49,101 nt of DNA from Bacilli bacterium (lineage in GTDB: Bacteria > Bacillota_I > Bacilli_A > RF39 > UBA660). Of this stretch, positions 31,080 to 49,101 are shown piece by piece. Location: the NCBI GenBank assembly GCA_017432665.1, contig JAFRIS010000006.1:1-49101 (forward strand), written 5' to 3'. Position numbers and translations under genes: made by a program. The notes under the pieces are model-generated. The model was not told the DNA's origin, made no database searches, and worked only from the letters and a program-made list of their open reading frames with translations. Positions within the stretch are counted from its first letter, which is position 1. The number at the start of each line of letters is the position of its first letter.

Positions 31080-31165
31080 AAAAACTGTAAAACTAAAAAA
31101 AAATTAAAAAAAATGTAAAAAATTGTTTTTTGTCTGTTGCACTCTTGAAAAATTTAAGATATACT
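31080..31165 (+). promoter_or_regulatory. Strong promoter of the surface-protein locus with A-rich UP element
   Basis: TTGCAC (31137-31142), exactly 17 bases, then TATACT (31160-31165). Upstream, 31080-31135 is almost pure A with phased T runs, resembling an UP element. This is one of the best promoters in the window and fits high expression of the genes at 31211 and 31933. Confidence 0.7.
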
Positions 31166-31210
31166 TAATTTATAAAAAATAGAATATTGCGACTACGGTA
31201 TGGTGATGAT

Positions 31211-31930
31211 ATGAATGGAAATGGTGTTGGTGTTAAAGCCAACAAAATATACAAACGCAAACTTGTAGTTCGAATAGTTAAAATTACATTACTATTATTA
31301 CTAATCAGTATCTCAACTATATATCTATTTTTATATGTTGCCTACAAAGGTGGACGATTTACAGTTTCTTTAGATAAAAATATGTCTAACAGAAAGAATA
31401 TCTTTTTGACAGAAACAGGTAAGCAAAATAGTAAAACTAGGGAGTTATCGGCAGAAACAATTGATTATATGGATAATATATCAATTAAGTGGTTGCCAAA
31501 TAACTTAGATACAGCAGCGGATGGTTCTCATAACGGTGATAACTATATTGCTTATAGTTTTTATGTCGTAAACAATGGAAAAGAAACAGTCCATTACTGG
31601 TATGAGTTAGATATAGACGACACTATAAGAAATGTAGATGAAGCGATTAGAATAATGGTATATCATAATGGTAAAAAGACAGTCTATGCTAAGAAAAGTA
31701 AAAAAACTGGTAAGGCTGAACCAAATACTAAAGCTTTCTATTCGAAGGACATAGCTTTGTTGGAACAAAGGAAAAATTTCAAACCTAATACAAAAGATCA
31801 TTTTACAGTGGTAGTTTGGATTGAAGGAGACGATCCAGAATGTCTCAACGATTTATTAGGTGGCGAAATAAAAATGCACATGGACATAACTGAAGAACAT
31901 TTCTCAGGTACAGGAAAGGGAGGAGCGTAA
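31211..31930 (+). CDS. Membrane-anchored TasA/SipW-substrate-like surface protein
   Basis: The protein has 239 residues from ATG 31211 (GGTGATGAT immediately before). An upstream in-frame start lacks that signal. One membrane helix lies at about 19-42 (VKITLLLLLISISTIYLFLYVAY). The extracellular part ends in 'HFTVVVWIEGDDPECLNDLL' and 'GGEIKMHMDI'. This WIEG-D-x-x-C...G-x-I-x-M block recurs near the end of the next protein, so the two share a fold. There is no clear AYA cleavage site, so it may stay anchored, perhaps as a base or assembly factor. It is the first gene of the locus, two bases before the next. Confidence 0.7.
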   Translation: MNGNGVGVKANKIYKRKLVVRIVKITLLLLLISISTIYLFLYVAYKGGRFTVSLDKNMSNRKNIFLTETGKQNSKTRELSAETIDYMDNISIKWLPNNLDTAADGSHNGDNYIAYSFYVVNNGKETVHYWYELDIDDTIRNVDEAIRIMVYHNGKKTVYAKKSKKTGKAEPNTKAFYSKDIALLEQRKNFKPNTKDHFTVVVWIEGDDPECLNDLLGGEIKMHMDITEEHFSGTGKGGA

Positions 31931-31932
31931 TT

Positions 31933-32955
31933 ATGGCTAAGCGCAAAGAAACAAAAAAAGAAAAAAATAGAAAAAGAAAGATATTGTTAGCATTATTACT
32001 TGTAGTTTTCACAGGAGTTATCCTTACTGCAAATACTTATGCATGGTTCACATCAAACAAGACAATTACTGTTAATTCAATTGATGTACAAGTAACTACT
32101 GCAAATGGTATTCAAGTATCTACAGATGCAACTAATTGGAAGACTATTATTACTAACACAGATTTAAATAACACATTGGCTGCTACATCAGCATATAGTA
32201 CTAATACTAACCAATTACCATTAAAATCTACTGAAAATACAGTAATACCTGTTTCAACTGGTGGAACTGTAGCTAGTGGTAAATTAAAAATGTATTCTGG
32301 AGAATTAAGTGCTAATGCAACTACAGGAGTTGCTGAATTAACTACTGATCCTTCAGTAGAGGCAAAAGGAAACTCTGGAGATTTCGTGGCATTCGATTTA
32401 TTCTTCTTAGTATCTCAAAACTCTGTAGTTAAATTGGGAGCTGGATCTTCTGTTACTACTTCAACTGGAGCAAGTAATAAAGGATTAAAAAATGCTGCAC
32501 GTGTAGCATGGATTAATGAAGGTAATGCTGCTACAGGTAATGTTTCTGCAGCTCAAGGTTTATCAAGTGGTACTGCTGCTACTACACTTATTTGGGAACC
32601 AAATAACAATGTACATACTGATGCTGCTATTGCAGATGCATTATCTACTTATGGTATGACAATTACAAGTAGTCAAGTAATGAGTAACTATTATGGTGTT
32701 GATGCTGATATCAATACAGCAGTTAGCTTAAATCCAATTACACCAGGAACTAACTTCAAACAAGTTACACCAGGTCTTAAGACTGCTGACGGAGTTTTAG
32801 CAGCAGATCAAGATTGGTTTTCATTACCTGCTGGAATCACTAAAGTTAGATTCTATTTATGGATTGAAGGTCAAGATGTAGATTGTGAAAACAATGCTTC
32901 TGGTGATGCAATTAGTTTCAACATGAACTTCGTATTACAAGATAATAATCCATAA
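31933..32955 (+). CDS. Probable major secreted subunit with SipW-type signal peptide
   Basis: The 340-residue protein has a very basic N-terminus (MAKRKETKKEKNRKRK), a hydrophobic core (ILLALLLVVFTGVILTA) and 'NTYAWFTSNKTITVNSIDVQ', the pattern typical of SipW-dependent TasA/camelysin-like proteins, with cleavage expected near TYA-W. The mature part is rich in Thr, Ala, Ser and Asn and contains only one Cys, in 'WIEGQDVDCENNASGDAISF', the block shared with the upstream protein. Position behind a strong promoter and before an internal terminator suggests it is the most abundant product of the locus, perhaps a fibre or layer subunit. That role is inferred. Confidence 0.75.
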   Translation: MAKRKETKKEKNRKRKILLALLLVVFTGVILTANTYAWFTSNKTITVNSIDVQVTTANGIQVSTDATNWKTIITNTDLNNTLAATSAYSTNTNQLPLKSTENTVIPVSTGGTVASGKLKMYSGELSANATTGVAELTTDPSVEAKGNSGDFVAFDLFFLVSQNSVVKLGAGSSVTTSTGASNKGLKNAARVAWINEGNAATGNVSAAQGLSSGTAATTLIWEPNNNVHTDAAIADALSTYGMTITSSQVMSNYYGVDADINTAVSLNPITPGTNFKQVTPGLKTADGVLAADQDWFSLPAGITKVRFYLWIEGQDVDCENNASGDAISFNMNFVLQDNNP

Positions 32956-32975
32956 GATTAATAAAATTCATTCAG

Positions 32976-33000
32976 GGCCTTCGTTTGAAGGCCTTTTATT
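32976..33000 (+). terminator. Internal terminator/attenuator after the major subunit gene
   Basis: GGCCTTC (32976-32982), loop GTTT, GAAGGCC (32987-32993), then TTTTATT. Unusually GC-rich for this region. The next gene starts only 16 bases later with no visible promoter, so read-through probably sets a lower level for downstream genes. Confidence 0.8.
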
Positions 33001-33015
33001 CTAGGGAGTGAGAAA

Positions 33016-33249
33016 ATGGACAAACTAAGTACCTTTAATAATGAAGAACTGCTTGAAGTTTATGCTAAAGTTCAAGAAGAGATAAACCACTTAAATGAAT
33101 GTATTCTAGAAGAGGAGCCTGACGTGGAAGCAGAAGAAGAGAAAAATGAAGAAGTCTCTGAAACTGAAAAAACTGAAGAATCATCTGAAGAAGAGAAAAC
33201 AGAGGAAGAAAAAGAAGAAAAAGAGGAAGAAAACAATGAGCAGAGTTGA
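33016..33249 (+). CDS. Small acidic Glu-rich protein
   Basis: The 77-residue protein has an N-terminal 30 residues that could form a helix (LSTFNNEELLEVYAKVQEEI). The rest is almost entirely Glu, Lys, Ser and Thr ('EEKTEEEKEEKEEENNEQS'), hence highly acidic and disordered. GGGAG nine bases upstream supports the start. It overlaps the next gene by 14 bases. The repetitive GAA/GAG DNA opens a Lys-rich reading in another frame, which is not a real extension of the next gene. Function unknown. Confidence 0.6.
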   Translation: MDKLSTFNNEELLEVYAKVQEEINHLNECILEEEPDVEAEEEKNEEVSETEKTEESSEEEKTEEEKEEKEEENNEQS

Positions 33250-34873
33250 TGAAAGTAATTTATTATTAGAAATTGAATCAATTAATGACTACATTGATAA
33301 TTTTGAATTAGAAAGAAAAAGTGGTACTAAAGCGTTAAAAAAGAAATTTCATAAAGAAGCAGTTGAAGGTCGTAATGGCTATGTTAAAGAAAAAATAGAC
33401 TTATATGAAAAATATAAGCGTATTTTGCTTGTAGAATTAGAAAATAGATCTAATGTCTTACTACCTCAAAATAAAAATGATAAATATGCAGAAAGAAAAG
33501 CACAGTTAAACAAATTACAAGAATTACTTATTTATAAAAATCCTTTTGTAAGTAATAATTTTAGACTAGGATTTTATAGATTAATATATGCAATTAAAGA
33601 GAATACTTCTCTTGAAGAATTAAACAGTATTGTTGATAATTATGTAGCTATATTCACTAGAATGGGCATTAAATTAAGTGCTGAAGACTTTGATTATACA
33701 ATGTTTACTAAAGATTATTTTAGTACTTATTTTGGTAGTGTAGAAGCTGCTGACAGAAAGGCTAAATTTGATAAAGTTTATTGGGAATGTCCTAAATTAG
33801 TACTTGAAATCAAACAATGTCTTCTAGCAATCTTAAAAAAATATGAGAAAAAAATTAATGAATATACTAAGGTTCATGAAGGCGAATTAGTAAGAGAAAA
33901 TGAAGTTGATATTGCTCATATTGAAGAAGTATATAATTTAACAAGAAAATCATTAGAAGATGATATTGATTCTGATGAATATACTATTCTAGATGATTTC
34001 TTAAAAGGGAATCATAGCATTAATGATTATTTAAAAGATTCCGCTTCAAGAGGAAAGATATTTGATTCTTTTGTTGCGAGTGGATCATATGAAGAATTAT
34101 CAGTAGATGATAAACTAAAATTCAAAGAAAATATTGTTGAATTATATCATACTTTAAATATTCTGAAAAAATATTATAAATATGAAACGATTATTACTGA
34201 TTTAGTAGAAAAATATAATAATAGAGCTACTGTTAAAGGTAATTTTGCAAATTTAGAAAAAGAATTAGATAAAGACGACAAAGAAAGAGAAAAGCTAAAT
34301 AAAGAATATGAAAAGAGTTGTGGAATAGGTTTCTTAGCTAAAGAATCATCTGATAAACAGAACTTAGCTAAGGTTAAGAGTAATGAAATATTTGATAAGT
34401 TAATGACTGATTTAGCTAATTATGATGAAGCTAAAATATCAGTTGATTTAGATAAGAATTTAAAGGAAAGTGCAAATGTCCATGATTTATTCAAAGTAGC
34501 TTTATCTTCTTATTCATATTTAGTTAGAACTTTAACTAAAATTAATGAAGAAGATCCAAATTTTGATTTAGAAAAAGAAATAGATGATTATATTGATTTT
34601 GTCTGTGATCCTAATGGTAATTTCTTAGATGGAATATTTGCTTTTAATAATTTAGATATAACCGAAACTATCAGTAAAAAATATCGCCTTGTAGGTATTA
34701 ATATTACTAAAGAGAAGATTGATAGAGAAGTGATAGATACACTATTAAATGATGTTTCACTTATCTATTTGATTCAAAATATTGAGAACAATTCCATAAC
34801 TATGGAAAATATAAAATTTATTTGTGATGTTAATAAGATAAAACCAATAGATTTATCTTCTGGATTAATCTAA
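33236..34873 (+). CDS. Large helical cytoplasmic protein, unknown
   Basis: The protein has 545 residues from ATG 33236, which follows GAGGAAG. A longer reading would add only a poly-Lys segment that is the frame-shifted shadow of the acidic gene. No signal or membrane segment is visible. The sequence is Glu/Lys/Leu-rich and predicted mostly helical, with a possible coiled coil around residues 345-380 ('NLEKELDKDDKEREKLNKEY'). It lies between the major subunit gene and the signal peptidase gene in the locus and ends at its own terminator. I do not recognise it. A cytoplasmic assembly or scaffolding partner is one possibility. Confidence 0.75.
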   Translation: MSRVDESNLLLEIESINDYIDNFELERKSGTKALKKKFHKEAVEGRNGYVKEKIDLYEKYKRILLVELENRSNVLLPQNKNDKYAERKAQLNKLQELLIYKNPFVSNNFRLGFYRLIYAIKENTSLEELNSIVDNYVAIFTRMGIKLSAEDFDYTMFTKDYFSTYFGSVEAADRKAKFDKVYWECPKLVLEIKQCLLAILKKYEKKINEYTKVHEGELVRENEVDIAHIEEVYNLTRKSLEDDIDSDEYTILDDFLKGNHSINDYLKDSASRGKIFDSFVASGSYEELSVDDKLKFKENIVELYHTLNILKKYYKYETIITDLVEKYNNRATVKGNFANLEKELDKDDKEREKLNKEYEKSCGIGFLAKESSDKQNLAKVKSNEIFDKLMTDLANYDEAKISVDLDKNLKESANVHDLFKVALSSYSYLVRTLTKINEEDPNFDLEKEIDDYIDFVCDPNGNFLDGIFAFNNLDITETISKKYRLVGINITKEKIDREVIDTLLNDVSLIYLIQNIENNSITMENIKFICDVNKIKPIDLSSGLI

Positions 34874-34887
34874 AAAAGTAACAAAAA

Positions 34888-34911
34888 AAAGGAAACTATG
34901 TTTCCTTTTTT
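34888..34911 (+). terminator. Terminator after the 545-residue protein gene
   Basis: AAAGGAAAC (34888-34896), loop TAT, GTTTCCTTT (34900-34908) and further T residues. Confidence 0.85.
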
Positions 34912-34921
34912 TATTGGTCTA

Positions 34922-34930
34922 TGATATAAT
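34922..34930 (+). promoter_or_regulatory. Extended -10 promoter of the signal peptidase/giant protein genes
   Basis: TGA TATAAT (TATAAT at 34925-34930) with no clear -35. The expected start near 34937 rules out the in-frame ATG at 34945 as translation start because it would leave no ribosome site. Confidence 0.55.
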
Positions 34931-34959
34931 AAAATAAGAATAAAATGGAGTCGTGTGTT

Positions 34960-36210
34960 ATGAAAAAGGTAAAAGCAATTCTAAAATACATTTTTTATAG
35001 TTTCCTAATTTTCTTAGTAGGATTATGTTGCTATGTATTTGTATGCTTAGATATTCTACATAAAGATTATGTTAATATCTTTGGCTATACTTATTTCGTA
35101 GTAGTAAGTGGCTCTATGTCAGGAGAAATAGAAGTAAATGATATTGTTATAGTAGATGTCACTAAGAAAGTAGAAATAGATGATATTGTTGCTTTTAAAA
35201 CTGATAAATCAATAGTAACTCATAGATTAGTACAAAAAAGTAATGGTAAATATATTACTAAAGGTGATATGAATGATACCTATGATAAAGCTATTACTAA
35301 GAAAGATATTATTGGTAAAGTAGTTCATATTATTTCACCTAAATTCTTATTAGAATTTATAGTATTAATATTTATTATCGTGATTGTGCTAGCATTATTA
35401 AATTTTGATGGAGTATTTAAAAAACTCTTCAAGATAGAAGAAAAGGAAATAGTACGAGATCGTCAAAATGTTTTACCACAAGATATTTTCTGTAGTCCAC
35501 AGGATCGTAATAATTTTAACGAACATTCAGGACTAACTATTACAATTCCAATGAAAGAGTTAAAGGATTTGAAGAAAACATTGGAAAAAGAACAAAAAGA
35601 AGAAGATAGTGTAGAAGTATTAGATGATATTGAAGAAATAGAAGTCTTAGACTTAGAGAATGATGACATTTATAAGACTCCTAACGATAAAGAATTAAAA
35701 GAAGAAGAGATTTATAACATTGTCGATGTTGTTTTAAAAGTAAATAACGGAGCATTAGAAACAACACATTTAACTAAGGAATGGCAAAAGAAATATAAAT
35801 ATGTTTATAAATTATGTTTATTTATTCAAAGTGGTAGATATGATTTATTAGATAAAGCTATTAATGATGTTCCTTTTAAAGAATACTTTGATTATGATAT
35901 TGATAAAGTTGGTTTATATAAAGAATTAAGAAATAAAATTTATGATTTACCTATCTATGTATTCTTAAAGATTCTATTTATTGCAATTTTATACAATGAT
36001 GAGCATTTCTTTGATGGAGTATTTAAAATCTTAAAATACAAAGTATTAGTAGATAAAAATGATACCTTTGTAGTAGTAAGAGATAGATATGATAAGAAAC
36101 AATTAAAGTCTTTAATAAACTTCATGGAAAGAGTAGCTAAGAAGTATAAGAAGAATGATGACTTAGAATTAAGTAGAGAAAAGAAACTAGTAGATATAAG
36201 TAATTATTAA
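34960..36210 (+). CDS. SipW-type signal peptidase I with long cytoplasmic extension
   Basis: The protein has 416 residues from ATG 34960 (GGAG nine bases upstream). The membrane helix at about 9-30 is followed by an extracellular S26 domain with catalytic Ser52 (VVVSGSMSGEIEVND) and His88 (SIVTHRLVQK), the Ser/His dyad of SipW and ER/archaeal-type peptidases. A second helix lies at about 129-152. After it, some 260 residues remain, expected in the cytoplasm: an acidic linker (about 205-255) and a helical domain to the C-terminus ('DLPIYVFLKILFIAILYNDE'). SipW proteins normally end soon after the second helix, so this extension is unusual. It probably processes the secreted proteins of this locus. 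Confidence 0.88.
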   Translation: MKKVKAILKYIFYSFLIFLVGLCCYVFVCLDILHKDYVNIFGYTYFVVVSGSMSGEIEVNDIVIVDVTKKVEIDDIVAFKTDKSIVTHRLVQKSNGKYITKGDMNDTYDKAITKKDIIGKVVHIISPKFLLEFIVLIFIIVIVLALLNFDGVFKKLFKIEEKEIVRDRQNVLPQDIFCSPQDRNNFNEHSGLTITIPMKELKDLKKTLEKEQKEEDSVEVLDDIEEIEVLDLENDDIYKTPNDKELKEEEIYNIVDVVLKVNNGALETTHLTKEWQKKYKYVYKLCLFIQSGRYDLLDKAINDVPFKEYFDYDIDKVGLYKELRNKIYDLPIYVFLKILFIAILYNDEHFFDGVFKILKYKVLVDKNDTFVVVRDRYDKKQLKSLINFMERVAKKYKKNDDLELSREKKLVDISNY

Positions 36211-36228
36211 GTTTATAAGGAGGTACAC

Positions 36229-39200
36229 TTGAAGAAGAAAGTATTAACAATAACTTTAACACTTGTTTTTCTTGCGGTTTTCAGTGTAGCCTTCTTTTTC
36301 ATTTACACTGATAAACCAGTGTTAGGGGAAAAAACAGATATAATTTGGGATGGTAGTACAATAGCTACCAGTTTTTCTGGTGGGAATGGAACAGAAGGAA
36401 ACCCTTATTTAATAAAAAATGGTGAAGAATTAGCTTATTTGCAAAAATTATTAGGTGGAGATCAAGCTAATAATTATAACAATCTATATTATGAACTTAC
36501 TGATGATATCAATTTAGGTAGTCATGAATTAGGACCAATAAGTACAGAAACAGCATTTTCTGGATTCTTTAATGGTAAAGGACATACTATTGAAAATATT
36601 TCAATAGTAGGAGAAAACAAAATTGAAGGAACTAATTATTATGGTTTATTTGGTAATGTTGATAATGGTAGTATTAATAATTTAAACATTAGCGGAATCA
36701 AGATTAGCGTTGTAGGTAATGGAATTACTGAATTAGGAGTTTTAGCTGGTAAAGTAGATTATGATACTAAAGATGTTAAAGAAAAAAGCAGTATTAATAA
36801 TATTTCTATTAGAGGTATAGATATTGACTTATCAGAGGCTACCTTGGCTGAAGATTCTAATGTCGGTTTGTTAGTAGGTGAAATAGGTAAGAATTATAAT
36901 TTTACTAACATTACAGTTTCAGGAAAATTAGCAAGTAAGGATAATAAACATATTGGTATACTTGCTAATAGTATTAATTCTGATTTGAAGAATGTTGTTT
37001 ATAGTCTAGAAACTGAATTAGAAATACAAAAAACAGAAGTAGAAAGTAACATAAAATTAACTAACATTTATGAATTTAAAGATAATAAGTATTATTTAGA
37101 AGATAAAGAAGTAGATACTGATGATATCTTAAAAGAATTAAATAAAGACTTAAAAGATTATGAATGGTCTTTAGATAAAGAAGATTTTATTTTAGAACTT
37201 AAGGAAGAAGTTAATGGGCAAAGTGATAATAAAGGTATTATCAAGCCAAAAGAAATGAAATCAGCTGCGATTACATTACATAATACTGGTAAGGACAATG
37301 GTACTGTATATCTTAATGATCTAGAATCAGATGAAGATTTCTATGAGGGACAAAACTATACTGACTGGAAAACTGAAAACACTATTCCGGATTTTACTAA
37401 TAAGAATTTATATAATACTAATAATTTAGCTAAAATTTATATTAGATATTCCGGAGCTAGTATTGATGACAGTACTATAAAGGGGTATGTAAGTAATGAT
37501 GAACTTTATAGCGATTTTATTTATTATAAATACTATCCGATTGAAGATGGTAAAGTAAAGATACCTTTAATCGATAATCCATATGCCTATAGACCTCGTA
37601 AAGGTAATGTGGATTTAGTATTTAATGGTTGGATTACAGATTATACGGGTGCAGTAGTATCTATTGATATGGAAACTTATGATAGATATGTAACTATTCC
37701 AGCACCAGCTAATCCATCTACTGCAACTAGTATTACTATGTACGCAGTATGGACTAAAGGTAAAGTTTATCAAATGACTAGTTCACAAACATTAGCTACT
37801 GCTGAAAGTAGTTTTACTACAGGTATGGTTAGTACAATATCAACTTCTAGAGATTATGGTATTACTGACTTTAGCATATATTATTTAAGAAGAACTGCAG
37901 ATAGATGGGAAGATTATCCAAGAAACTCATATGATGAAAATGGTAATAGTTTATATGGATACTATTGTCGTAGTAGAAATGGATGTACTTATTACATTCA
38001 AGCACCTTCTACATTTGACCCGGATGAAGATTATTATAGATTACAAAACGGTTATATGAGTGCTGCTCCATATACCACTGTAACATCTAACTTTATTGAA
38101 GTTGGAAAATCGACTGCTGGTTATTTTAGGCAAAAGACAATTAGTGGTTCAAGAGTAGGCTATTATAATGCAAATGGTGAACCAGAAACAGGAACATGTA
38201 ATAATTGTACTGTTTATGAGTTAATACCTTATTATGATCAAAATAATACCCCTAATGTTTTAGGTGCTAATGATACGAATACTTATTATTATTTGACGAC
38301 TCGAGATACTAATATTGTTGTCTTAAGAGCAGCTCTTAATTACTCAAATACTAGGTTTACTAATACTAAACCATTGACAGTCACTTCATTACATAATGGT
38401 AATGATTACCGAAGTGATGGAAGTATGAGTATGACTAGTGCTTATGTTTATGCTCAAGCTGATTTAAGAATCGAATATGTTAGACCTACGGGTAATATTA
38501 ATGCTAATGCATCTAATAGTACATATAACTCTGCAGCGCCTCCTAGTAGTTTGTCTAGTAGAAGTATCTTTGGTAATTATCAAAACTTAAAAGTTGGTCG
38601 TGGAATTACCTTCTCAACAACGGATAGTTATGTCAATTTTCAAAGTGTTATTGCGGGTAATGTATCTAGTACAGGATCATCATCTAGTTTAACTAAATAT
38701 AAGATGATTGTAGAAAGTGGGGAAAGTAACCAAATTAGTGTTACTGGAGGAGCTAACTCTAGTAGTACAACTCAATATGTAGATGGAGTGGCTGTTCTTG
38801 GATGTGACTTTGACAGAGCTAGTAACGCTAATAATTTATTGCATGTATACCATGCTACTGCAGCTGGTTGGGGAGGTAACTTAAGAAGTAGTAGTACTGC
38901 TGGAGTTGCAACTCAACAAATTGTTAAGAGTGGTTCATATGGAACTAGTAAAAATAATTATTCCTGCGGTGTCTATGTAGGTGGACGTGGTAGTTCGGGA
39001 AGTTATCATTATTCAGCTCGTGAAGCAATAATTGAAGGTGGATATATCTTCAACTTAATCGGTGGAGCCTTAGCAAATACTAACAAAACTACTAATGATG
39101 CATATATCTTTGTTAAAGGTGGAAATGTTGATTTAGTATTTGGTGGAGCCGGTGTTTCTGAGACTTATGGTAATAGAATTATTGCTGTTACTGGTGGACA

Positions 39201-42200: not shown

Positions 42201-44070
42201 GAATGGTGATACAACATTCCATGTATTAGACTTTGATGATTCAGAATTAGATCCTAGCTTAACAATGGTTGAGGAAACTCAAGTACCTAAATTTGCTAGG
42301 GTTGGTTCAGATGAATCAAAGAAATTCGGATTAAATATGAAGAGTGAGTCTACTGAGTGGACATCTAGCAATAAAACTTCTTTTGTAAGTGCTAATAATG
42401 GTGAAGCTTTAGGAGACAAAACATATCTAACAAGTAGTGATGCCGGAGCGCCTAACTTGCAATTCTACTTATATCATGCTAAAAACATTGAAATGGAAGG
42501 GGATTTAGGGACTGTTGTTATTACAATGGATGCTTCAACTCCTAAAAATGGTTATGAAGTAGATTTGAAAATGGTCACAATTAGAATTAATATTGAAGCG
42601 ATTAATTATTCTGATGGTAACCATTATGATGCAAGTATTAGTTATGGTAAAAAATATTCAATGCCGGTAACTACACCAGTAAATATAACTCCTAAGTCAC
42701 AATTTACTGAGTATTTCTCATTAATTGCTAATGATGAAATAAATGATATTTATGGTAATAATCATAACTATTATCGTACTTTAGTATCTAGTTATGCACT
42801 TCCAGTGGGAACAACAATTTCAATGATTGATTTATCTAAAGATACACCTGCATATTATTATTACGAAGTGGATGCAACTAACTATGCTCAAAAAGTACAG
42901 GAATTAGCTACTGACAATGAAATATCTTATCGATTGTCGGACTTCCTGGCTATGGATACAACGACTCTGACAAATAAGTATAATGATACCGTGAAGAATC
43001 TTGAATATTATGATACAGACATGGGTATGGCTTATGAAGAATTCTTATTTATATTTGATTTTAAGAATACCAATATAACGACGGCTCAATTGGATAATGA
43101 AATGCTATTTGAGCTTCGTACAAATGATGATAGAACAGCTATTACAGTACTGGATAAACGTTTAGAAGATCGTGATATGGTATTTAATATTCATCAAACA
43201 AGTAATATTGCTTTATCACAAACAATAAGTACTGCTAATACTAACTTCTACTATGATATGGCTAATACAACAGTTTATACTACTCAAGTATCATATTCTA
43301 CTAGTGGAAGTACTTTAAAAGTAATTGATACTAATTATGAAGCCAGTCGAATGGGTGTTAATATTCAATTGTTTGATAGCCATGGTACTAGTGTTAGTTC
43401 ATCAATGTTATCAGGTACAGTAATTAAAATTGGTAATGAAGAACACTATGTTGATAGCGATGGTGTATTTAGAATAAAACTGGCTAATAAAGTTACTAAT
43501 GTTGTTAGAAATTTAAATATAACAGTTGATTCTTTATTACCAGCCGGTGAATATACTGTTAAATATTCTATAATTGCATCTTCTGATGGATTACACGCAT
43601 CTAACTTAGATGCACCTACTTATACACAAACTATTCATGTAGTAAATGCTGATAATGTAATTACCGTATCAAACAATGATAAAACCAAGGTGTTCTATGC
43701 AGATTTAGGCTACAATGAAGCATATAATGCTAGTAATACTTATCAAATTAAATATACTTCGACATTAGTAAATACTAATGTAAGACTAGGGGTTTATAAA
43801 AGAAAAACAGATGTCTATAATTCAACTCAATATGTTGAGACAGAAGCTTCTAAAATATTCTCAAATAATTTACCTGGCACAGGTTCAACAACTTATCCAT
43901 TTGAAGTATCTCTTCCATTTGATAGTTCACCTTATAATGTCCTTCTAACAGTTAATCCTGCTATTAAGAGTGGAACTTATAAATTAGTCTTTAAACTATG
44001 TGATAATGACCAAGTGGTAGATACTGATGAGGTATATTTGATCGTTAAAAAACCTGTTGTACAGGATTAA
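36229..44070 (+). CDS. Giant secreted surface protein (2613 residues) with YGGGN repeats
   Basis: It starts with TTG at 36229 after AAGGAGGT. The N-terminal hydrophobic segment is at 5-26 (LTITLTLVFLAVFSVAFFFI). Residues about 55-160 are GLUG-like beta-solenoid ('GTEGNPYLIKNGEELAYLQK', 'FSGFFNGKGHTIENISI'). A Listeria-Bacteroides-repeat-like segment near 455-505 contains 'LVFNGWITDY' and 'ITMYAVWTKGK'. Residues about 968-1720 hold about 25 copies of a [VF][YF]GG[GSN]N-type turn alternating with short strands, a predicted beta-helix. The C-terminal 800 residues are Thr/Asn-rich beta-sandwich-like. There is no sortase motif or C-terminal anchor. It is flanked by two signal peptidases. Adhesin or matrix function is inferred. 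Confidence 0.9.
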   Translation: MKKKVLTITLTLVFLAVFSVAFFFIYTDKPVLGEKTDIIWDGSTIATSFSGGNGTEGNPYLIKNGEELAYLQKLLGGDQANNYNNLYYELTDDINLGSHELGPISTETAFSGFFNGKGHTIENISIVGENKIEGTNYYGLFGNVDNGSINNLNISGIKISVVGNGITELGVLAGKVDYDTKDVKEKSSINNISIRGIDIDLSEATLAEDSNVGLLVGEIGKNYNFTNITVSGKLASKDNKHIGILANSINSDLKNVVYSLETELEIQKTEVESNIKLTNIYEFKDNKYYLEDKEVDTDDILKELNKDLKDYEWSLDKEDFILELKEEVNGQSDNKGIIKPKEMKSAAITLHNTGKDNGTVYLNDLESDEDFYEGQNYTDWKTENTIPDFTNKNLYNTNNLAKIYIRYSGASIDDSTIKGYVSNDELYSDFIYYKYYPIEDGKVKIPLIDNPYAYRPRKGNVDLVFNGWITDYTGAVVSIDMETYDRYVTIPAPANPSTATSITMYAVWTKGKVYQMTSSQTLATAESSFTTGMVSTISTSRDYGITDFSIYYLRRTADRWEDYPRNSYDENGNSLYGYYCRSRNGCTYYIQAPSTFDPDEDYYRLQNGYMSAAPYTTVTSNFIEVGKSTAGYFRQKTISGSRVGYYNANGEPETGTCNNCTVYELIPYYDQNNTPNVLGANDTNTYYYLTTRDTNIVVLRAALNYSNTRFTNTKPLTVTSLHNGNDYRSDGSMSMTSAYVYAQADLRIEYVRPTGNINANASNSTYNSAAPPSSLSSRSIFGNYQNLKVGRGITFSTTDSYVNFQSVIAGNVSSTGSSSSLTKYKMIVESGESNQISVTGGANSSSTTQYVDGVAVLGCDFDRASNANNLLHVYHATAAGWGGNLRSSSTAGVATQQIVKSGSYGTSKNNYSCGVYVGGRGSSGSYHYSAREAIIEGGYIFNLIGGALANTNKTTNDAYIFVKGGNVDLVFGGAGVSETYGNRIIAVTGGQVNYGVFGGSNGTSGSNSSNQRGTLSGDTFVYIGGHALIGGGDSAGLYNVAPGTVYGAGNGNSSNTAGTIGSVNNSNVLINGGTIRSNVYGGGNFGAIGTNLSSGTVNAKLKIKNGTISGSVYGGGNNNGAGTTNVVANVDLEMSGGTVSGSVYGGSRVKGTIYGSTTVKVNGGTISEDVYGGGEGGYRRVGNTTYDGTYVARNVTVTIGDNNVSTTPSISGNVYGGSAYGSVNGTTNNGSATATYRTTVTVNKGTIVGDVFGGGKGGTEDGSTYTPKEYGDITVSINGGSIGRVFGGNDQMGSPGRNDYVYLNGGTIGSAFGGGNNTGQTTTNIYLQGSTITNDLYGGSNESGSITTTNVEITSGSVKNVFGGNNLGGTTNTSNVDISGGTITNNVYGGGNEVGVGTTHVDITGGTVGTTIFGGSNQSGTVTTAFVTMNATGNYPDVYGGNNSGGTTIASHVTITKGNIVNVYGGGYRATTGSTDIDMTGGTVTNMFGGGNFADVTETDINITGGNLTNVFGGGNKANVTTDTLVNIQGATATGSVFGGGNQGEVLGNSEITIKNSAVNGSAYAGGNEADVKGNTTITVEGTSTIGTSSTQVPMGSVFGSGNSAGTGTASNKKTATVNIVGGTVYGNVYGGANTSVVNGVANIKIGTAAVNNNTLTEGNIWIKGTVYGGGESNAAGSAEYDYTAISVTEGINITINGDGYANNSHTFKLNGSIFGSGNASSSAGDSTIYIKKLGTLAAPNDNLSIQRTTYLTIDESVIHLIGATDITNKYSNAKYSFNLIGTKQPDQDPVGGLILKNNSTLLLDENANQLVSFYSGVDTQQGLAPATVTIDDSEQSVVKNTDNRVYMLANKNLNIATDDDATDYGKVTGMTFFGVYRNSAGNIHEVGVYDPSVYTYGHSATTADLVIASSYVLGSHHSNHDITKDGFYTNYLEEDTNFSQVRTGYIHPTPPDVAYYRWQIGTNSIEYEFTMTASKYLSMGTNTLSLIDFPNGDTTFHVLDFDDSELDPSLTMVEETQVPKFARVGSDESKKFGLNMKSESTEWTSSNKTSFVSANNGEALGDKTYLTSSDAGAPNLQFYLYHAKNIEMEGDLGTVVITMDASTPKNGYEVDLKMVTIRINIEAINYSDGNHYDASISYGKKYSMPVTTPVNITPKSQFTEYFSLIANDEINDIYGNNHNYYRTLVSSYALPVGTTISMIDLSKDTPAYYYYEVDATNYAQKVQELATDNEISYRLSDFLAMDTTTLTNKYNDTVKNLEYYDTDMGMAYEEFLFIFDFKNTNITTAQLDNEMLFELRTNDDRTAITVLDKRLEDRDMVFNIHQTSNIALSQTISTANTNFYYDMANTTVYTTQVSYSTSGSTLKVIDTNYEASRMGVNIQLFDSHGTSVSSSMLSGTVIKIGNEEHYVDSDGVFRIKLANKVTNVVRNLNITVDSLLPAGEYTVKYSIIASSDGLHASNLDAPTYTQTIHVVNADNVITVSNNDKTKVFYADLGYNEAYNASNTYQIKYTSTLVNTNVRLGVYKRKTDVYNSTQYVETEASKIFSNNLPGTGSTTYPFEVSLPFDSSPYNVLLTVNPAIKSGTYKLVFKLCDNDQVVDTDEVYLIVKKPVVQD
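39130..41395 (+). repeat. Coding repeat array: about 25 YGGGN-type units
   Basis: Within the giant gene, units of roughly 25-35 codons end in GTTTATGGTGGTGGAAA-like DNA encoding [VI]-[YF]-G-G-G-N. Examples are VYGGGNFG, VYGGGNNN, VFGGNNLG, VYGGGNEV, VFGGGNKA and VFGGGNQG, with 'GGTVTN' or 'GGTISG' strands between. Spacing and flanks vary, so this is a protein repeat, not a mobile or CRISPR repeat. Confidence 0.85.
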
Positions 44071-44101
44071 AATGTATGTTAAAATTAGGATGGTGATATA
44101 A

Positions 44102-44701
44102 ATGAAAAAGGTTATTTCCTGGGTATTAGGAATAGTTGAAGCCATAATAATTGTCTATGTAATTTTCTTAACAAGTTGTTTATTATTTGTTAATGATTTT
44201 GGCAATACACAATTTGGTAAATATACATTAATAGAAGTTAACAAAGGACAAGCATCTTTATTAGAAGGTGTTGAAGAAGGAGATCTTTTAGTAATAAAAG
44301 ATGGTAATGATATTGTTAAGGGGAATGTAATTTATTATTATAGTGTTATTAATGAACAGTATTTTGTTAAAAAAGCTATGGTAACAGATATTAAAGAAGA
44401 TAATTTCGATTCTATATATACAGTTGATGTAGCTAATAAAGGTGAAACTAATGCTATTCAAGGTAAAAAAGTAATAGGTAATTATATTTCTATTCATAGA
44501 AAATTAGGAAAGGTACTAACTGCTTTAGAATCAAAAGTAGGATTCTTATTCCTAGTATTATTACCAATGCTATGTATCTTTATTTACCATGTATATTCGT
44601 TCATAATAATTTTAAAATTTGAGAAAGTTGACCCTGAAGAAGAGGATATTGAGATATTAGAAGAAACAAAACCTAAAAAGAAGAGAAAAAAGAAGAAGTA
44701 A
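44102..44701 (+). CDS. Divergent S26 signal peptidase with possible Ser/Lys dyad
   Basis: The 199-residue protein has membrane helices at about 8-30 and 146-168, the same layout as SipW-type peptidases. The segment 'KGQASLLEGVEEGDLLVIK' aligns with the catalytic-Ser region (Ser52). 'EQYFVKKAMVTD' aligns with the region carrying His in SipW and with the 'YIKR' Lys region of bacterial signal peptidase I, so Lys90 could be the base. The C-terminus is a basic tail (KPKKKRKKKK). GGTGATATAA precedes the start. It follows the giant gene directly. The usual SM dipeptide is replaced by SL, so activity is likely but not certain. Confidence 0.65.
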   Translation: MKKVISWVLGIVEAIIIVYVIFLTSCLLFVNDFGNTQFGKYTLIEVNKGQASLLEGVEEGDLLVIKDGNDIVKGNVIYYYSVINEQYFVKKAMVTDIKEDNFDSIYTVDVANKGETNAIQGKKVIGNYISIHRKLGKVLTALESKVGFLFLVLLPMLCIFIYHVYSFIIILKFEKVDPEEEDIEILEETKPKKKRKKKK

Positions 44702-44716
44702 TTCTTCTTTTTTTAG
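44687..44716 (+). terminator. Terminator after the second signal peptidase gene
   Basis: AAAAAGAAGAA (44687-44697) pairs with TTCTTCTTTTT (44702-44712), with further T residues. It overlaps the stop codon. Confidence 0.7.
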
Positions 44717-44745
44717 TTCATTTTGTTTAATTTCAATAATAATTA

Positions 44746-44754
44746 TGGTATAAT
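44746..44754 (+). promoter_or_regulatory. Extended -10 promoter of the three pilin-like genes
   Basis: TGG TATAAT (TATAAT at 44749-44754). The -35 is unclear (TTGTTT at 44723-44728 is 20 bases away). Confidence 0.5.
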
Positions 44755-44777
44755 TAAATCAAACTAGGGTGAAGTTT

Positions 44778-45368
44778 ATGAAAGATAGAAATAAAAGAGT
44801 ATTGTTGGTTACATTATTAATATTTTGTTTCATATATTTGGTTGTTAGGGGTGTCCAAGCAGCTTATGAATCAACTATTTCTGGAAAGGCAGAAAATGAT
44901 ATAGCAAACTGGTCAATTAAAGTTAATAATCAAGAAATTAGTAGTGATACAGTACAAAATATTGACCTAACATATACCGTTAATGACTTAACTAACATTA
45001 GATCTGGAAAAGTTGCCCCAGGTGTTAACCTTAGTTATCCTATTCAAATAGATGCTTCAGGTAGTGAAGTAGCTGTTAAAATTACTTTTACAATTACAGA
45101 TAAAACTATTGATCCTGATAAATATTTAACTTTGACAAGTGTTACTTCTAACAGCTTAACAATTGTTAAGGTTGATGAAGACAAGTATAGTGCTGTTATT
45201 CCTAAAGCTAGTTTAAGTGGTGTAAAAACAGTTACTTTAAATATGTCTTGGATAGATACTGGAGATTTAATAGAATATGATGATACAGTAACTGATGATA
45301 ACTTTATGGAGGTTAACTTTAATGCAATTCAATACACAGGAGAAGTATTAACTCCATACAGTGGCTAG
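44778..45368 (+). CDS. TasA-like secreted protein, copy A
   Basis: The protein has 196 residues from ATG 44778, five bases after AGGGTGA. It has a basic start (MKDRNKR), a hydrophobic core (VLLVTLLIFCFIYLVV) and 'RGVQAAYESTISGKAENDIA' followed by NWSIKVN. This is the typical N-terminus of mature TasA/CotN-like SipW substrates: Ala cleavage site, aromatic residue, then a short spacer to 'ANW'. The mature domain is a predicted beta-sandwich with 'GVNLSYPIQIDASGSEVAVK'. It is the first of three consecutive small secreted genes. A minor fibre subunit is a reasonable guess. Confidence 0.75.
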   Translation: MKDRNKRVLLVTLLIFCFIYLVVRGVQAAYESTISGKAENDIANWSIKVNNQEISSDTVQNIDLTYTVNDLTNIRSGKVAPGVNLSYPIQIDASGSEVAVKITFTITDKTIDPDKYLTLTSVTSNSLTIVKVDEDKYSAVIPKASLSGVKTVTLNMSWIDTGDLIEYDDTVTDDNFMEVNFNAIQYTGEVLTPYSG

Positions 45369-45379
45369 TAGGTGATAAT

Positions 45380-45979
45380 ATGAAAAAAGAAAATTTAATT
45401 GAATCACTTGGTGTCGAAAGAACAAAGAAAATTTTCAAAGCAACTTTGGTTTTAGTTTTCTTTCTATTACTAGGTTTCTTTTTTGCTCAATCATATGCTA
45501 AATATGAATCATCTGTTAAATTAAGTTCTAATGTTGATAAAGCAATTTACTTACTTAAAGATGAAAAAATGACTTTTAACCTAGATCCAGATGCTATAGT
45601 ACCTAGTGATACAGATTATACGTATACATTTACGGTATCTAACTTTGATGGTAGCCAAAATGGTGATATTAATTTGAAATATTATATTCAAGTTAAAACA
45701 ACAACCAATCTACCAATTACAGTTAAATTATTAAGAAATCAAGCTTATAGTCCTTCAGGAACTAATATTATTCCAGGATATGAGTTAGTTCAAGATGAGG
45801 ACGGAGCTTGGTACAAACTATATACTGCCTCACCAAGTTATGAATTTCAATATAATACTAGAAGAACGGATAGTTATGTATTAGTAGTAGAATATCCAGA
45901 AATTAATAAATCTAATTTAGCTTATACTGGGGTACCAGAAAACATTGAGGTAGCAATTTATTCAGAACAAAAAGTTTAA
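45380..45979 (+). CDS. TasA-like secreted protein, copy B
   Basis: The 199-residue protein starts at 45380 after GGTGATAAT. It has a hydrophobic segment at about 21-40 (ATLVLVFFLLLGFFFAQ) and the cleavage-like 'QSYAKYESSVKLSSNVDKAI', matching the AYAKY pattern of SipW substrates. The rest is beta-rich ('DYTYTFTVSNFDG', 'YYIQVKTTTNLPITVKLLRN'). It lies 11 bases after copy A and 9 before copy C. The three are similar in layout but diverged in sequence, so they are likely distinct subunits rather than redundant copies. Confidence 0.75.
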   Translation: MKKENLIESLGVERTKKIFKATLVLVFFLLLGFFFAQSYAKYESSVKLSSNVDKAIYLLKDEKMTFNLDPDAIVPSDTDYTYTFTVSNFDGSQNGDINLKYYIQVKTTTNLPITVKLLRNQAYSPSGTNIIPGYELVQDEDGAWYKLYTASPSYEFQYNTRRTDSYVLVVEYPEINKSNLAYTGVPENIEVAIYSEQKV

Positions 45980-45988
45980 GGAGAAATT

Positions 45989-46930
45989 ATGAAGTATATT
46001 AGAGAACATAGAAAACTTAGTATTATTACCCTAATAGTTCTAGTAGGGGTTTTAATGTTGGGTTTAGCTTATGCTAAGTACTTCTTAAATATAATTAACA
46101 ATTACATATTAGAAACTAAGAGATTTTATTTTAATAGTTCAGTACTAACGGTTAATAATAAACATTATCAAATAAATAACTGGGATGGTGTTAGTACTTA
46201 TCCTATTACAATAGATTTAAATAATCGTAAGAACGCGGAAAGATATACAACTAGTGATATTGAATATACTATTCATGTTGTTTGCGATACATCAAAATTA
46301 AATTGTTCACTTAGTAAAACATCAAGTATTCTTAGAGAAGATGATCATACTGATAGTTATCAAATAACAGTTTCACCAATAGTTAATTTCAATGCTGGAG
46401 AAACAGTAAGTGTTCATACATATGTTGAATCAAGTTCACCATATGTTAAACAATTATCTGCAACATATGACTTAAATGTTATTAATAGTAGATTTACTTA
46501 TGATATTGAAGATAAAGCCGGAGATTTGGCATTAAACTTAAATCTAACTAATTCAATGGCTTATTATGAAGTAGAAGAAGCTTTTGGAAATTACTCTGTA
46601 GGTGATGAAATAAGTAATGATGTTTACCTAACATTATCGGATACTAATAAAGCAAAATGCTTCTCTGCTAAAGTAACGTTAACTTTTGATCCAAGTGTAG
46701 TCATCTTAGATTCTACAGATAATTCAATAAAAAATCGATTGTCATCTCCATATCAGACAACTACTATAAATGGTAATAGTTATGTGTCGAAATATGCATT
46801 TAAAGTAGATGCCGCGACGAATAAAAACGTTATTTTTTATAAAACTAATCCGTATGTTAATTACACATATCCAAGAAATAATAATAGTCCAATTATTCAA
46901 GTTGATGTCCAATTGGCACGTACTCAGTAA
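45989..46930 (+). CDS. TasA-like secreted protein, copy C (longer)
   Basis: The 313-residue protein has a signal region at about 9-29 (LSIITLIVLVGVLMLGLAYA), followed by 'AKYFLNIINNYILETKRFYF', again the SipW-substrate pattern. It appears to have two beta domains. The first is about 40-165 with two Cys (VVCDTSKLNCSL). The second is about 175-313, beginning 'DIEDKAGDLALNLNLTNSMA' and resembling cohesin-like or pilin sandwich folds ('VEEAFGNYSVGDEISNDVYL'). AGGAG precedes the start. It ends the three-gene unit. A tip or branching subunit is possible, but nothing in the sequence proves it. Confidence 0.7.
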   Translation: MKYIREHRKLSIITLIVLVGVLMLGLAYAKYFLNIINNYILETKRFYFNSSVLTVNNKHYQINNWDGVSTYPITIDLNNRKNAERYTTSDIEYTIHVVCDTSKLNCSLSKTSSILREDDHTDSYQITVSPIVNFNAGETVSVHTYVESSSPYVKQLSATYDLNVINSRFTYDIEDKAGDLALNLNLTNSMAYYEVEEAFGNYSVGDEISNDVYLTLSDTNKAKCFSAKVTLTFDPSVVILDSTDNSIKNRLSSPYQTTTINGNSYVSKYAFKVDAATNKNVIFYKTNPYVNYTYPRNNNSPIIQVDVQLARTQ

Positions 46931-46956
46931 AATACTTTTAAACAGAACTATATATA

Positions 46957-46965
46957 TGCTATAAT
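46957..46965 (+). promoter_or_regulatory. Extended -10 promoter before the 338-residue protein gene
   Basis: TGC TATAAT (TATAAT at 46960-46965). No terminator precedes it, so this gene may be read both from its own promoter and from upstream. Confidence 0.5.
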
Positions 46966-46990
46966 TTAATAGAATAGATAGGGTGATAAG

Positions 46991-48007
46991 ATGAATAATA
47001 TAGTTGATTCATACAAGAAATTTAAAATTTATTACCTAGGGAAGATAGGAAAGATATTATATACTTCTAAAGAACCAAAATCTATAGATATTTTGGATAG
47101 ATATCTAAATAACTATTTCAACGCTAAGTTTTATAATATCTATGAAACAGTTGAAGATGGACAACCATTTTCTTTTGAAGTTTTACAAGAGGAATTTGAT
47201 GGTTTAGAAATAGAATTATTGGAGACAAATAAAGAACTTACTAAACAAATAAAAGAATTAAAGAAAGTAGCTTACTTTATTTGTAATTTAGATGGAATAT
47301 ATCAAACAGAAGAAGAAATACAAAAACTAATTGAAGAAGAAGTAGTAAAAGAACAATATATTCAAATAATTCTAGGAAATAAGAAAGAACAATTTATAAA
47401 TGCTTTTATAGAGATGTCTCGTAAAGAAAATAAAATATTGGAGACTGATATTAATGAGTTTTTTGAATTAACTAGTCACCAACAAGATAATATAGTGATA
47501 ATTGACATGGCTCATAGTATTAAATTATTAAATAGTTATCGTAAGACTTTAGTTAATCAAGTATATAAAGATCAAAAGTTATATTTAAAGAAAGCAGTTA
47601 ATATTCTTGATAAAATAGCTTTTAAGATTTTGAAAGATAGATGTTTAGGGCTAGATGATAAATTAAGATATGTTGTTTTACTTGAAAGTCCAGCTATCGT
47701 AAATGGTGATTTTGCTAAAGAGATAAAGGATATTATCAATGATCCATTAATTATTAAAAAACTTGGAGTTGCTTTATCAGATGATGTATTGTTCACAAGA
47801 GAGAATTTATTTAAGAATAATGCAGTTCGATTATCTTGTTTCAGGGATATGACATATGTTAATGATCTTGATAAAAAGTTTACTACAGTATTAGCTTTAC
47901 CAATAGAATACTTTATAATTACAAGTTATAAAACTAAACGCGAAGCAGATATAATCGCTCATGCTGATATTGATGATAGAATAATAATATATGAGGAGGA
48001 TAACTAA
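46991..48007 (+). CDS. Helical cytoplasmic protein, unknown
   Basis: The 338-residue protein has no signal peptide or membrane helix. It is predicted mostly helical with a Glu/Lys-rich coil near 72-95 ('EIELLETNKELTKQIKELKK') and a C-terminal part ending 'PIEYFIITSYKTKREADIIA'. GGTGATAAG immediately precedes the start. Its stop overlaps the ATG of the AAA+ ATPase gene by one base, so the two are translationally coupled and may work together. I do not recognise the family. Confidence 0.75.
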   Translation: MNNIVDSYKKFKIYYLGKIGKILYTSKEPKSIDILDRYLNNYFNAKFYNIYETVEDGQPFSFEVLQEEFDGLEIELLETNKELTKQIKELKKVAYFICNLDGIYQTEEEIQKLIEEEVVKEQYIQIILGNKKEQFINAFIEMSRKENKILETDINEFFELTSHQQDNIVIIDMAHSIKLLNSYRKTLVNQVYKDQKLYLKKAVNILDKIAFKILKDRCLGLDDKLRYVVLLESPAIVNGDFAKEIKDIINDPLIIKKLGVALSDDVLFTRENLFKNNAVRLSCFRDMTYVNDLDKKFTTVLALPIEYFIITSYKTKREADIIAHADIDDRIIIYEEDN

Positions 48008-49101
48008 TGGATACATTTATAAGATTTCTTTATGAATTTATGTCTGTGTTCTTTGAAGGATTTCTTGGAATATTCAAAGGAATAGTCCTAGGATTTATTC
48101 AGATGTTTAATATTAGAGAATACGGATATGTAATATCTATGTATCGCAAAGACTTCCATATGGGGGAATGGATTCTAGTAGTGATAGCTATTCTAGTATT
48201 GGTTATAGTATTAGCTTTAATAGTTTTACTAATCTGGTTTATTATTAGAAAATATATTAGATTTAGAAAAACATTAGTAGAACAAGAATCAATGCTTGAA
48301 GAAATTGGTAATTTGCATAAAGAGGTAGCTAAATTATCAAATGAAAAAGATAAATTATTAGCTATGAAAGTTTCTCAATTAGGTTTAAAACCTGATGAAG
48401 CTGAAGTACTTAGTGAAGAAGAAACTGGAGAAGAAGAGAAGAAAGAAGATGTTGTTGACTTATCTAATATCAGATTTAGTAAATTACATGAAATTGATGT
48501 TGAATTTGCTAACTATAAGCCAGTTAATTATGGTAATAACTTTACTCTTGAAGAATTAGTTGAACACTTTAGAAACTTTGCTGCCTCTAAGTTGAAACTT
48601 TACTATACAACTGAAATGATTAGATTATTCATATCAGGTTTAAGTTGTACTAGACTTGTTATCCTACAAGGTATTTCTGGTACTGGTAAAACTTCCTTAG
48701 CTTATGCTTGGGGTAAATTTATTAAAAATGACGCAATCATTGCTTCAGTACAACCGTCTTGGAGAGATAGAACTGAGCTATTTGGTTACTTCAACGAGTT
48801 CACTAAGAAGTTCAATGAGACAGATGTCTTAAAAGGTTTATACAAAGCTAACTACACAGATGATGTATACGTAACAGTACTGGACGAAATGAATATCGCC
48901 CGTGTCGAGTATTACTTCGCTGAAATGTTATCTATTCTAGAAATGCCCAGTCGTGATGAATGGATAATTGAGTTAGTTCCTAGTACATGGGATAGTGACC
49001 CTAAGTTATTAACAAATGGTAAATTACAAATACCTGGTAATATGTGGTATATTGGTACAATCAATAACGATGACTCTACATTCGCTGTTACTGATAAAGT
49101 G
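48007..49101 (+). CDS. Membrane-anchored McrB-like AAA+ ATPase (3' end beyond window)
   Basis: 365 codons are visible and open to the window edge. The N-terminus has an amphipathic hydrophobic stretch (about 5-35) and a strong membrane helix at about 56-80 (ILVVIAILVLVIVLALIVLL). A coiled coil (about 90-125) and an acidic linker (about 137-150) follow. The ATPase domain has Walker A GISGTGKT (residues 222-229), then 'VQPSWRDRTELFGYF', Walker B VTVLDE (289-294) in 'LDEMNIARVEYYFAEMLSIL', and sensor-1-like 'MWYIGTINNDDSTFA'. These are hallmarks of the McrB/GTPase-type AAA+ group, but McrB itself is soluble and paired with McrC. The membrane anchor and coupling to a surface-protein locus suggest a role in assembly or secretion. 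Confidence 0.85.
   Translation, partial: MDTFIRFLYEFMSVFFEGFLGIFKGIVLGFIQMFNIREYGYVISMYRKDFHMGEWILVVIAILVLVIVLALIVLLIWFIIRKYIRFRKTLVEQESMLEEIGNLHKEVAKLSNEKDKLLAMKVSQLGLKPDEAEVLSEEETGEEEKKEDVVDLSNIRFSKLHEIDVEFANYKPVNYGNNFTLEELVEHFRNFAASKLKLYYTTEMIRLFISGLSCTRLVILQGISGTGKTSLAYAWGKFIKNDAIIASVQPSWRDRTELFGYFNEFTKKFNETDVLKGLYKANYTDDVYVTVLDEMNIARVEYYFAEMLSILEMPSRDEWIIELVPSTWDSDPKLLTNGKLQIPGNMWYIGTINNDDSTFAVTDKV

Follow-up and report, generated by a model that had tools for sequence, protein, structure and literature searches.

The system closest to the gene cluster analysed here is CoCoPALM, described by Bell et al. (eLife 2024; PMC11090510) as a McrB-like GTPase fused to an FtsB-like transmembrane (TM)/coiled-coil region, with signal peptidases as neighbours, and named for pilus assembly. 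The same authors regard CoCoPALM as CoCoNuT-like, deferring the details, and report that the McrC homologue in these systems usually carries fused coiled coils (PMC11090510). Our search, which left most subscription-journal papers and supplementary files outside its scope, retrieved no later paper using the name in this sense. Another relevant precedent is SipA, which is essential for streptococcal pilus polymerisation and is devoid of catalytic residues (PMC4049620).

The cluster in question occupies the last 18 kb of the window, i.e. the whole stretch of 49,101 nucleotides (nt) that was analysed (contig JAFRIS010000006.1, here C25, of the 1.19-Mb, 71% complete genome of a Bacilli bacterium). 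It is best read as a platform, anchored in the membrane and probably driven by GTP, on which a TasA-like fibre would be assembled, and we lean, with reservations, towards a CoCoPALM-type surface-structure assembly system working by the mechanism proposed in the last section. An earlier note on this DNA had suggested a dedicated surface-structure apparatus including a membrane AAA+ ATPase. This idea is partly supported, since surface, signal-peptidase and AAA genes are kept together in at least 10 families. The accompanying view that no such system was known has to be abandoned, because the combination of AAA, McrC-like protein and signal peptidase already carries the name CoCoPALM.

Gene content and conservation of the cluster

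The cluster forms a single plus-strand run with intergenic gaps of -14 to +71 nt, and all twelve genes named in the earlier note lie where it had placed them (sizes below are given in amino acids, aa; ORF, open reading frame).

31187..31930, plus strand: A247, N-terminally membrane-anchored protein, likely start ATG 31211; conserved in the genus and in other families
31933..32955, plus strand: B340, SipW-type substrate (TIGR04088, 20.4 bits), predicted beta-sandwich
32974..32995, plus strand: terminator-like hairpin after B340; the next ORF begins 20 nt later
33016..33249, plus strand: acidic 77-aa protein; small ORFs of 62-74 aa occupy the same position in G001, G018 and G003
33236..34873, plus strand: C545, soluble protein with no family match and no predicted TM segment; usually accompanies the A247-B340 module
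34945..36210, plus strand: S26a, SipW-type signal peptidase (PF00717 above cut-off; TIGR02228, 6.8e-13)
36229..44070, plus strand: giant 2613-aa surface protein with an N-terminal TM segment and GG repeats of ~24-26 residues at ~1000-1670
44102..44701, plus strand: S26b, member of the signal-peptidase family without the catalytic Ser/His pair
44769..45368, plus strand: D199, SipW-type substrate-like (motif by eye and profile relatedness)
45380..45979, plus strand: E199, SipW-type substrate-like, related to D199 (hhalign 97.0%)
45989..46930, plus strand: F313, SipW-type substrate-like, related to E199 (hhalign 95.2%)
46991..48007, plus strand: H338, soluble; helical N-domain followed by a degenerate EAL domain (154-338)
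48007..49101, plus strand: McrB-like AAA+ protein with N-terminal TM segment and coiled coil; 365 of ~512 aa, up to the contig end

The contig end cuts the AAA+ gene at residue 365. A profile search located the AAA C-terminus at the beginning of another contig of this genome, C10 (G000:C10:2-298), with ~49 residues absent between the two contigs. In C10 (locus L235) the genes that come next encode a DUF2357 protein of 362 aa, an S26 peptidase (S26c, the third of the cluster), a 255-aa SipW-type protein and an ABC transporter. Judging from the contiguous genes of relatives, C25 probably continues into C10. The McrC-like (DUF2357) partner, placed just beyond the window, had been missed in the earlier gene inventory.

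Comparison with 18 loci of the genus and with 80 further loci (the best 80 of at least 570 relatives on contigs of GTDB species, all uncultured and overlapping the 18 genus loci) revealed a strongly conserved arrangement. The order H338 - AAA - DUF2357 - S26c - SipW-type protein was constant in 18/18 genus loci. We observed (i) DUF2357 directly after AAA in all genus loci and in 79/80 further loci, the exception being at a contig edge, (ii) S26c as the next gene (18/18 and 77/80), and (iii) H338 or an S26+H338 fusion before AAA (18/18 and 77/80). Co-occurrence with SipW-like peptidases, which the earlier note had put forward as the outcome to look for in a gene-neighbourhood search, was observed. 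Three distant genus members encode H338 not as a separate protein but as part of the S26 protein that precedes the AAA. Depending on the lineage, the A247-B340-C545-giant module is located upstream or downstream, staying close by; as it changes side yet remains close, the two modules appear to be functionally linked. In other families the arrangement A247-B340(1-3 copies)-S26-AAA-DUF2357-S26-substrates recurs.

Profile searches of the same 392 genomes detected B340 in 50 and AAA in 84 of them, and both in 47 (Fisher p = 8e-34, relatedness ignored). As for the three B340 genomes without AAA, two match the signal region only and one match is at a contig end. These data bear on the possibility that a surface operon merely stands beside an unrelated AAA operon. 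The two sub-cassettes do swap order and are sometimes apart, as chance adjacency would allow; however, it is contradicted by the neighbours kept in at least 10 families, by the 47/50 co-occurrence and by the S26-H338 fusions, and we consider it extremely improbable. The earlier note would have accepted this explanation if related genomes carried the surface genes without the AAA+ and helical genes. The AAA association passes this test (47 of the 50 B340 genomes).

The AAA gene was present in 15/16 genus genomes that are at least 90% complete, and AAA relatives (a count that includes related subtypes without S26) in 107/296 genomes of the class and at no fewer than 570 loci. Such strong conservation suggests that the cluster probably encodes a real surface-structure-building machine. 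It is common in uncultured gut and rumen Bacilli, the carriers being mostly gut-derived, and several members have closed single-contig genomes, so that tractable hosts may exist.

The cluster is probably transcribed unevenly, since promoter-like sites are not enriched (105 observed versus 113.9 in shuffles) and B340 is followed by a terminator-like hairpin that is conserved; the single strong promoter proposed in the earlier note is thus not supported. Every genus member examined has a hairpin with a T-run after B340, although the stem sequence varies, and so do many of the more distant loci that leave a gap at this place. The likeliest role suggested by this pattern is that of a partial terminator raising B340 over the downstream genes. 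Partial rather than full termination is assumed because of the short distance to the next ORF, and conservation in place with a changed sequence is the pattern that production of B340 in excess would lead one to expect.

The AAA+ motor and its DUF2357 partner

The AAA+ protein was correctly recognised in the earlier note as membrane-anchored and McrB-like. An N-terminal TM segment is present in 125/125 AAAs of the full-length size, with a coiled coil seen by eye, and there are matches to the McrB model NF008457 (5e-6, orthologue) and to the E. coli McrB structure 6hz4 (6.4e-6). The N-terminus displays no more than weak similarity to FtsB/FtsL/DivIC (E 0.008-0.1). The NxD motif, followed by D or E, occurs in 142/149 AAA relatives, and N353 and D355 are invariant in the alignment. 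The window's own AAA reads NNDD, which formally fits NxxD too, but relatives with NxDE settle the motif as NxD.

The partner protein matches DUF2357 (PF09823, E 1.8e-11, above cut-off, for the G001 orthologue; the copy of the window's genome is that on C10). Its conservation is limited to the N-terminal two thirds, and the alignment contains no conserved acidic/lysine nuclease signature in the C-terminal part. On this alignment, the PD-(D/E)xK nuclease characteristic of McrBC type IV systems was not recognised, and a PDB sequence search with the DUF2357 protein gave nothing credible. Inspection by eye showed no obvious coiled coil in the 362-aa copy and a long charged helical C-terminus in G055.

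In a FastTree tree the cassette AAAs of ~500-560 aa form one clade, mostly grouped by host family. Outside this clade are (i) S26-linked AAAs of ~600 aa, (ii) tandem AAAs of ~450-480 aa accompanied by giants, and (iii) AAAs of ~900 aa. The third type was observed in L178, L179 and L194 as pairs of AAA (~900 aa) and DUF2357 (~520 aa), of which those of L179 and L194 match the PADLOC candidate PDC-M26A most strongly. L213:6964-12926, and also L186, L189 and L214, contain three AAA genes with DUF2357 between the second and third and giant TM proteins after them; the first AAA of these triple cassettes is devoid of the Walker A and NxD motifs. In L180, L182, L192, L193 and L207, which make up a subclade nested within the ~500-560-aa clade, AAA and DUF2357 adjoin a giant surface protein directly; this giant neighbour is 2300-2980 aa long and is accompanied by a TM protein of ~430-470 aa, with no signal peptidases.

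The ancestry of these proteins raises the question of an anti-phage function: as kin of CoCoNuT and type IV restriction systems, the cluster might sense or block infection by means of its membrane anchor and surface proteins. McrB/DUF2357 ancestry, the match of the AAA to PDC-M26A (2.5e-37) and the treatment of CoCoPALM as CoCoNuT-like by Bell et al. speak for it. On the other hand, PDC-M26A scores higher on the ~900-aa relatives, the DUF2357 proteins are without the conserved nuclease motif, and the linkage to exported proteins is constant. Moreover, the genes flanking the cassette look housekeeping-like by eye, not defence-like, and presence in nearly every sufficiently complete genus genome is unlike the patchy distribution of defence systems. 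A defensive role therefore seems improbable to us, less so than mere adjacency.

Exported proteins, signal peptidases and H338

Five SipW substrates had been proposed in the earlier note, and four of them can be retained. B340 scores above the 19-bit cut-off of the NCBIfam SipW-signal model TIGR04088, and the Y-A-W-F that follows its hydrophobic segment is invariant in 30 homologues, while D199, E199 and F313 are assigned by motif and profile. The last three, the downstream SipW-type protein and a minus-strand homologue are mutually related (hhalign); the homologue in question, related to D199, is encoded in most loci beyond the downstream end of the cassette and in reverse orientation to it (e.g. 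L235:5253-5855, minus strand). The fifth protein, A247 (247 aa), has a plain membrane helix without the SipW cleavage motif. It shares the C-terminal W-x-E-G-x-D-x-x-C motif of B340 (hhalign 97.7% probability over 44 columns) and is a possible anchor or initiator.

B340 is the likely major subunit. Its AlphaFold model is a predicted beta-sandwich (pLDDT 85.8), whose nine best VIA chains are all subunits of strand-exchange filaments. The top match is the TasA fibre 8aur (Z 5.2, 139 residues, rmsd 3.9), a Z of ~5 falling among unrelated beta-sandwiches and below the reliable range; others include an archaeal thread (Z 5.1) and FimA/FimH of the type 1 pilus. Comparison of B340 with PDB sequences gave nothing credible, and no match to TasA was found at the sequence level.

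The giant protein has no C-terminal sorting signal and no Pfam match; its orthologues in the genus are 2600-3080 aa long. A sortase pilus was considered and rejected: among the sortase matches listed (3-13 per genome) none is in the window's cluster, and the LPxTG of the giant protein is internal, with no membrane segment after it. Separately, proteins of 1000-1430 aa with type IV prepilin-like N-termini (GFTLIELL...) were noticed in G003 (L043:11893-16062) and, similarly, in G026, G014 and G005, several kb downstream of the cassette and near two small glycosyltransferase-like genes.

The exported product may also be another layer or adhesin complex, composed of the giant and small exported subunits and assembled by the platform, instead of a TasA-like fibre. 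The weakness of the TasA match and the recurrence of giants beside these AAAs, even without B340, fit such a product. The fibre is better suited to the position of B340 after A247 at the operon start, to its 1-3 copies and to the strand-exchange filaments heading its structural matches, which is why we regard a different layer as unlikely, though deserving of attention.

Active-site states of the S26 proteins were read from an alignment to the S26c profile. Ser and His were both found in 15/16 S26a sequences (the 16th being partial), 110/110 of S26c, 29/29 of the S26 copy before E199 and 24/25 of the S26 copy before AAA in other families. In contrast, both residues were present in none of the 65 S26b orthologues before D199. 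The "two S26 peptidases" of the earlier note are accordingly one SipW-type peptidase (S26a) and one protein, S26b, which on the aligned residues is a conserved pseudo-peptidase. S26a possesses a C-terminal extension of ~200 residues; a common origin of this extension, C545 and H338 was rejected, as no hhalign signal was obtained.

H338, which the earlier note took for one of two helical cytoplasmic proteins, is half helical and half degenerate EAL. Residues 154-338 of its model (pLDDT 90.2) resemble EAL domains (Foldseek 2.6e-4) and adopt the predicted EAL TIM-barrel fold; all 50 VIA matches shown are EAL, including FimX and LapD (Z 10.5-13.2, rmsd 3.5-4.1, ~160-181 residues). Pfam EAL does not detect H338, and a PDB sequence search with it gave nothing credible. 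There is no invariant column in the H338 alignment, so the EAL metal-binding and catalytic residues are not conserved. By these criteria H338 is a degenerate EAL fold, as predicted by modelling, and not an enzyme. An active cyclic di-GMP (c-di-GMP) phosphodiesterase was rejected on the same lack of conserved catalytic residues and on the empty Pfam EAL search in 10/11 genus genomes. The one genome with a Pfam EAL match was G007. A ~685-aa GGDEF-domain protein was found in 10/11 genus genomes (e.g. G000:C32:16401-16829); G017, without it, is also without the AAA.

A serious alternative concerns precursor quality control, in which AAA-DUF2357 would not drive assembly but clear stalled SipW-type precursors from the membrane or unfold them, or gate the peptidases. 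The same genomic data, together with the N-terminal TM segment and coiled coil of the AAA, agree with this role, and the soluble H338, S26-fused in distant members, suits a regulator of peptidases or precursors as well as a motor component. Nothing specific speaks against it, except that some relatives adjoin giants without signal peptidases, and the motor therefore need not act on peptidase substrates. We consider this explanation to be about as unlikely as a different surface layer.

Proposed mechanism and comparison with known systems

According to the assembly mechanism that we favour, B340 (as the major subunit), D199, E199, F313 and the downstream substrate would start as precursors that are inserted in the membrane and bear SipW-type signals, and S26a and S26c, the SipW-type peptidases with intact active sites, would cleave them. 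A247 would keep its membrane helix and, like TapA in the TasA system, act as anchor or first subunit; B340 would polymerise by strand exchange outside the cell, with the giant repeat protein as a possible associated adhesin. The pseudo-peptidase S26b could bind precursors uncut and pass them on, as proposed for SipA in streptococcal pili. Inside the cell, a membrane-anchored hexamer of the McrB-like AAA+ protein, stimulated by DUF2357, would hydrolyse GTP or ATP to load, release or pull precursors, and H338 might connect the motor side with the peptidase side, as its fusions with S26 in distant members suggest. The full proposition, i.e. that a DNA-restriction motor gave rise to a nucleotide-driven machine by which strand-exchange fibres are assembled across a Gram-positive membrane, is put forward tentatively, as rather less probable than not.

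Several observations weigh against this assembly platform. The structural resemblance of B340 to TasA is weak, and Foldseek gave no significant match for B340 (E > 0.03). Many B340 profile matches beyond the window's family span only the signal and the first strand; despite these partial distant matches, full-length B340 ORFs adjoin AAA in other families. Outside the window's family H338 was not seen. Finally, the nested subclade described above combines AAA and DUF2357 with a giant in the absence of S26 and substrates, and the ~900-aa AAA and DUF2357 pairs have neither S26 nor substrates.

Similarly to the Bacillus tapA-sipW-tasA operon (PMC9674648), the cluster has a SipW-type peptidase that would process small beta-sandwich substrates, and among the structural matches of B340 the TasA fibre ranks first. 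In contrast to that operon, it adds an AAA motor, DUF2357, a pseudo-peptidase, an EAL-like protein and a giant repeat protein. Descriptions of TasA fibres include no more than a peptidase and a nucleator, so that, if the proposal is true, fibre building by an energised assembler with a pseudo-peptidase as chaperone and a degenerate EAL protein as regulator would be new. S26b resembles SipA of Streptococcus pyogenes (PMC4049620) in its signal-peptidase fold, the loss of catalytic residues and its location among surface-polymer genes; however, SipA is part of a sortase-dependent pilus system and has lost Ser/Lys, whereas S26b is SipW-like and has lost Ser/His. AAA and DUF2357 domains are shared with McrBC type IV restriction systems, from which the cluster differs in its membrane-anchored NxD AAA and in a partner without a conserved nuclease motif. 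The re-use of a restriction-system motor at the membrane for surface building would, if true, be a striking change of function.

With CoCoPALM (PMC11090510) the cluster shares an NxD McrB-like AAA with N-terminal TM segment and coiled coil, a DUF2357 partner and neighbours of the signal-peptidase family. The published CoCoPALM article, compared apart from its supplementary files, does not mention SipW-type/TasA-like substrates, an anchor, the split into active and dead S26 proteins, a degenerate EAL protein or giant adhesins. The machine type thus has a name and hardly a description, and its cargo and several of its partners appear to be undescribed in the literature searched. New here are the association with SipW-type substrates, the ranking of the B340 fold, the dead S26b, the degenerate EAL of H338 and the hairpin after B340. 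If our reading is true, the CoCoPALM label would gain its first defined cargo.

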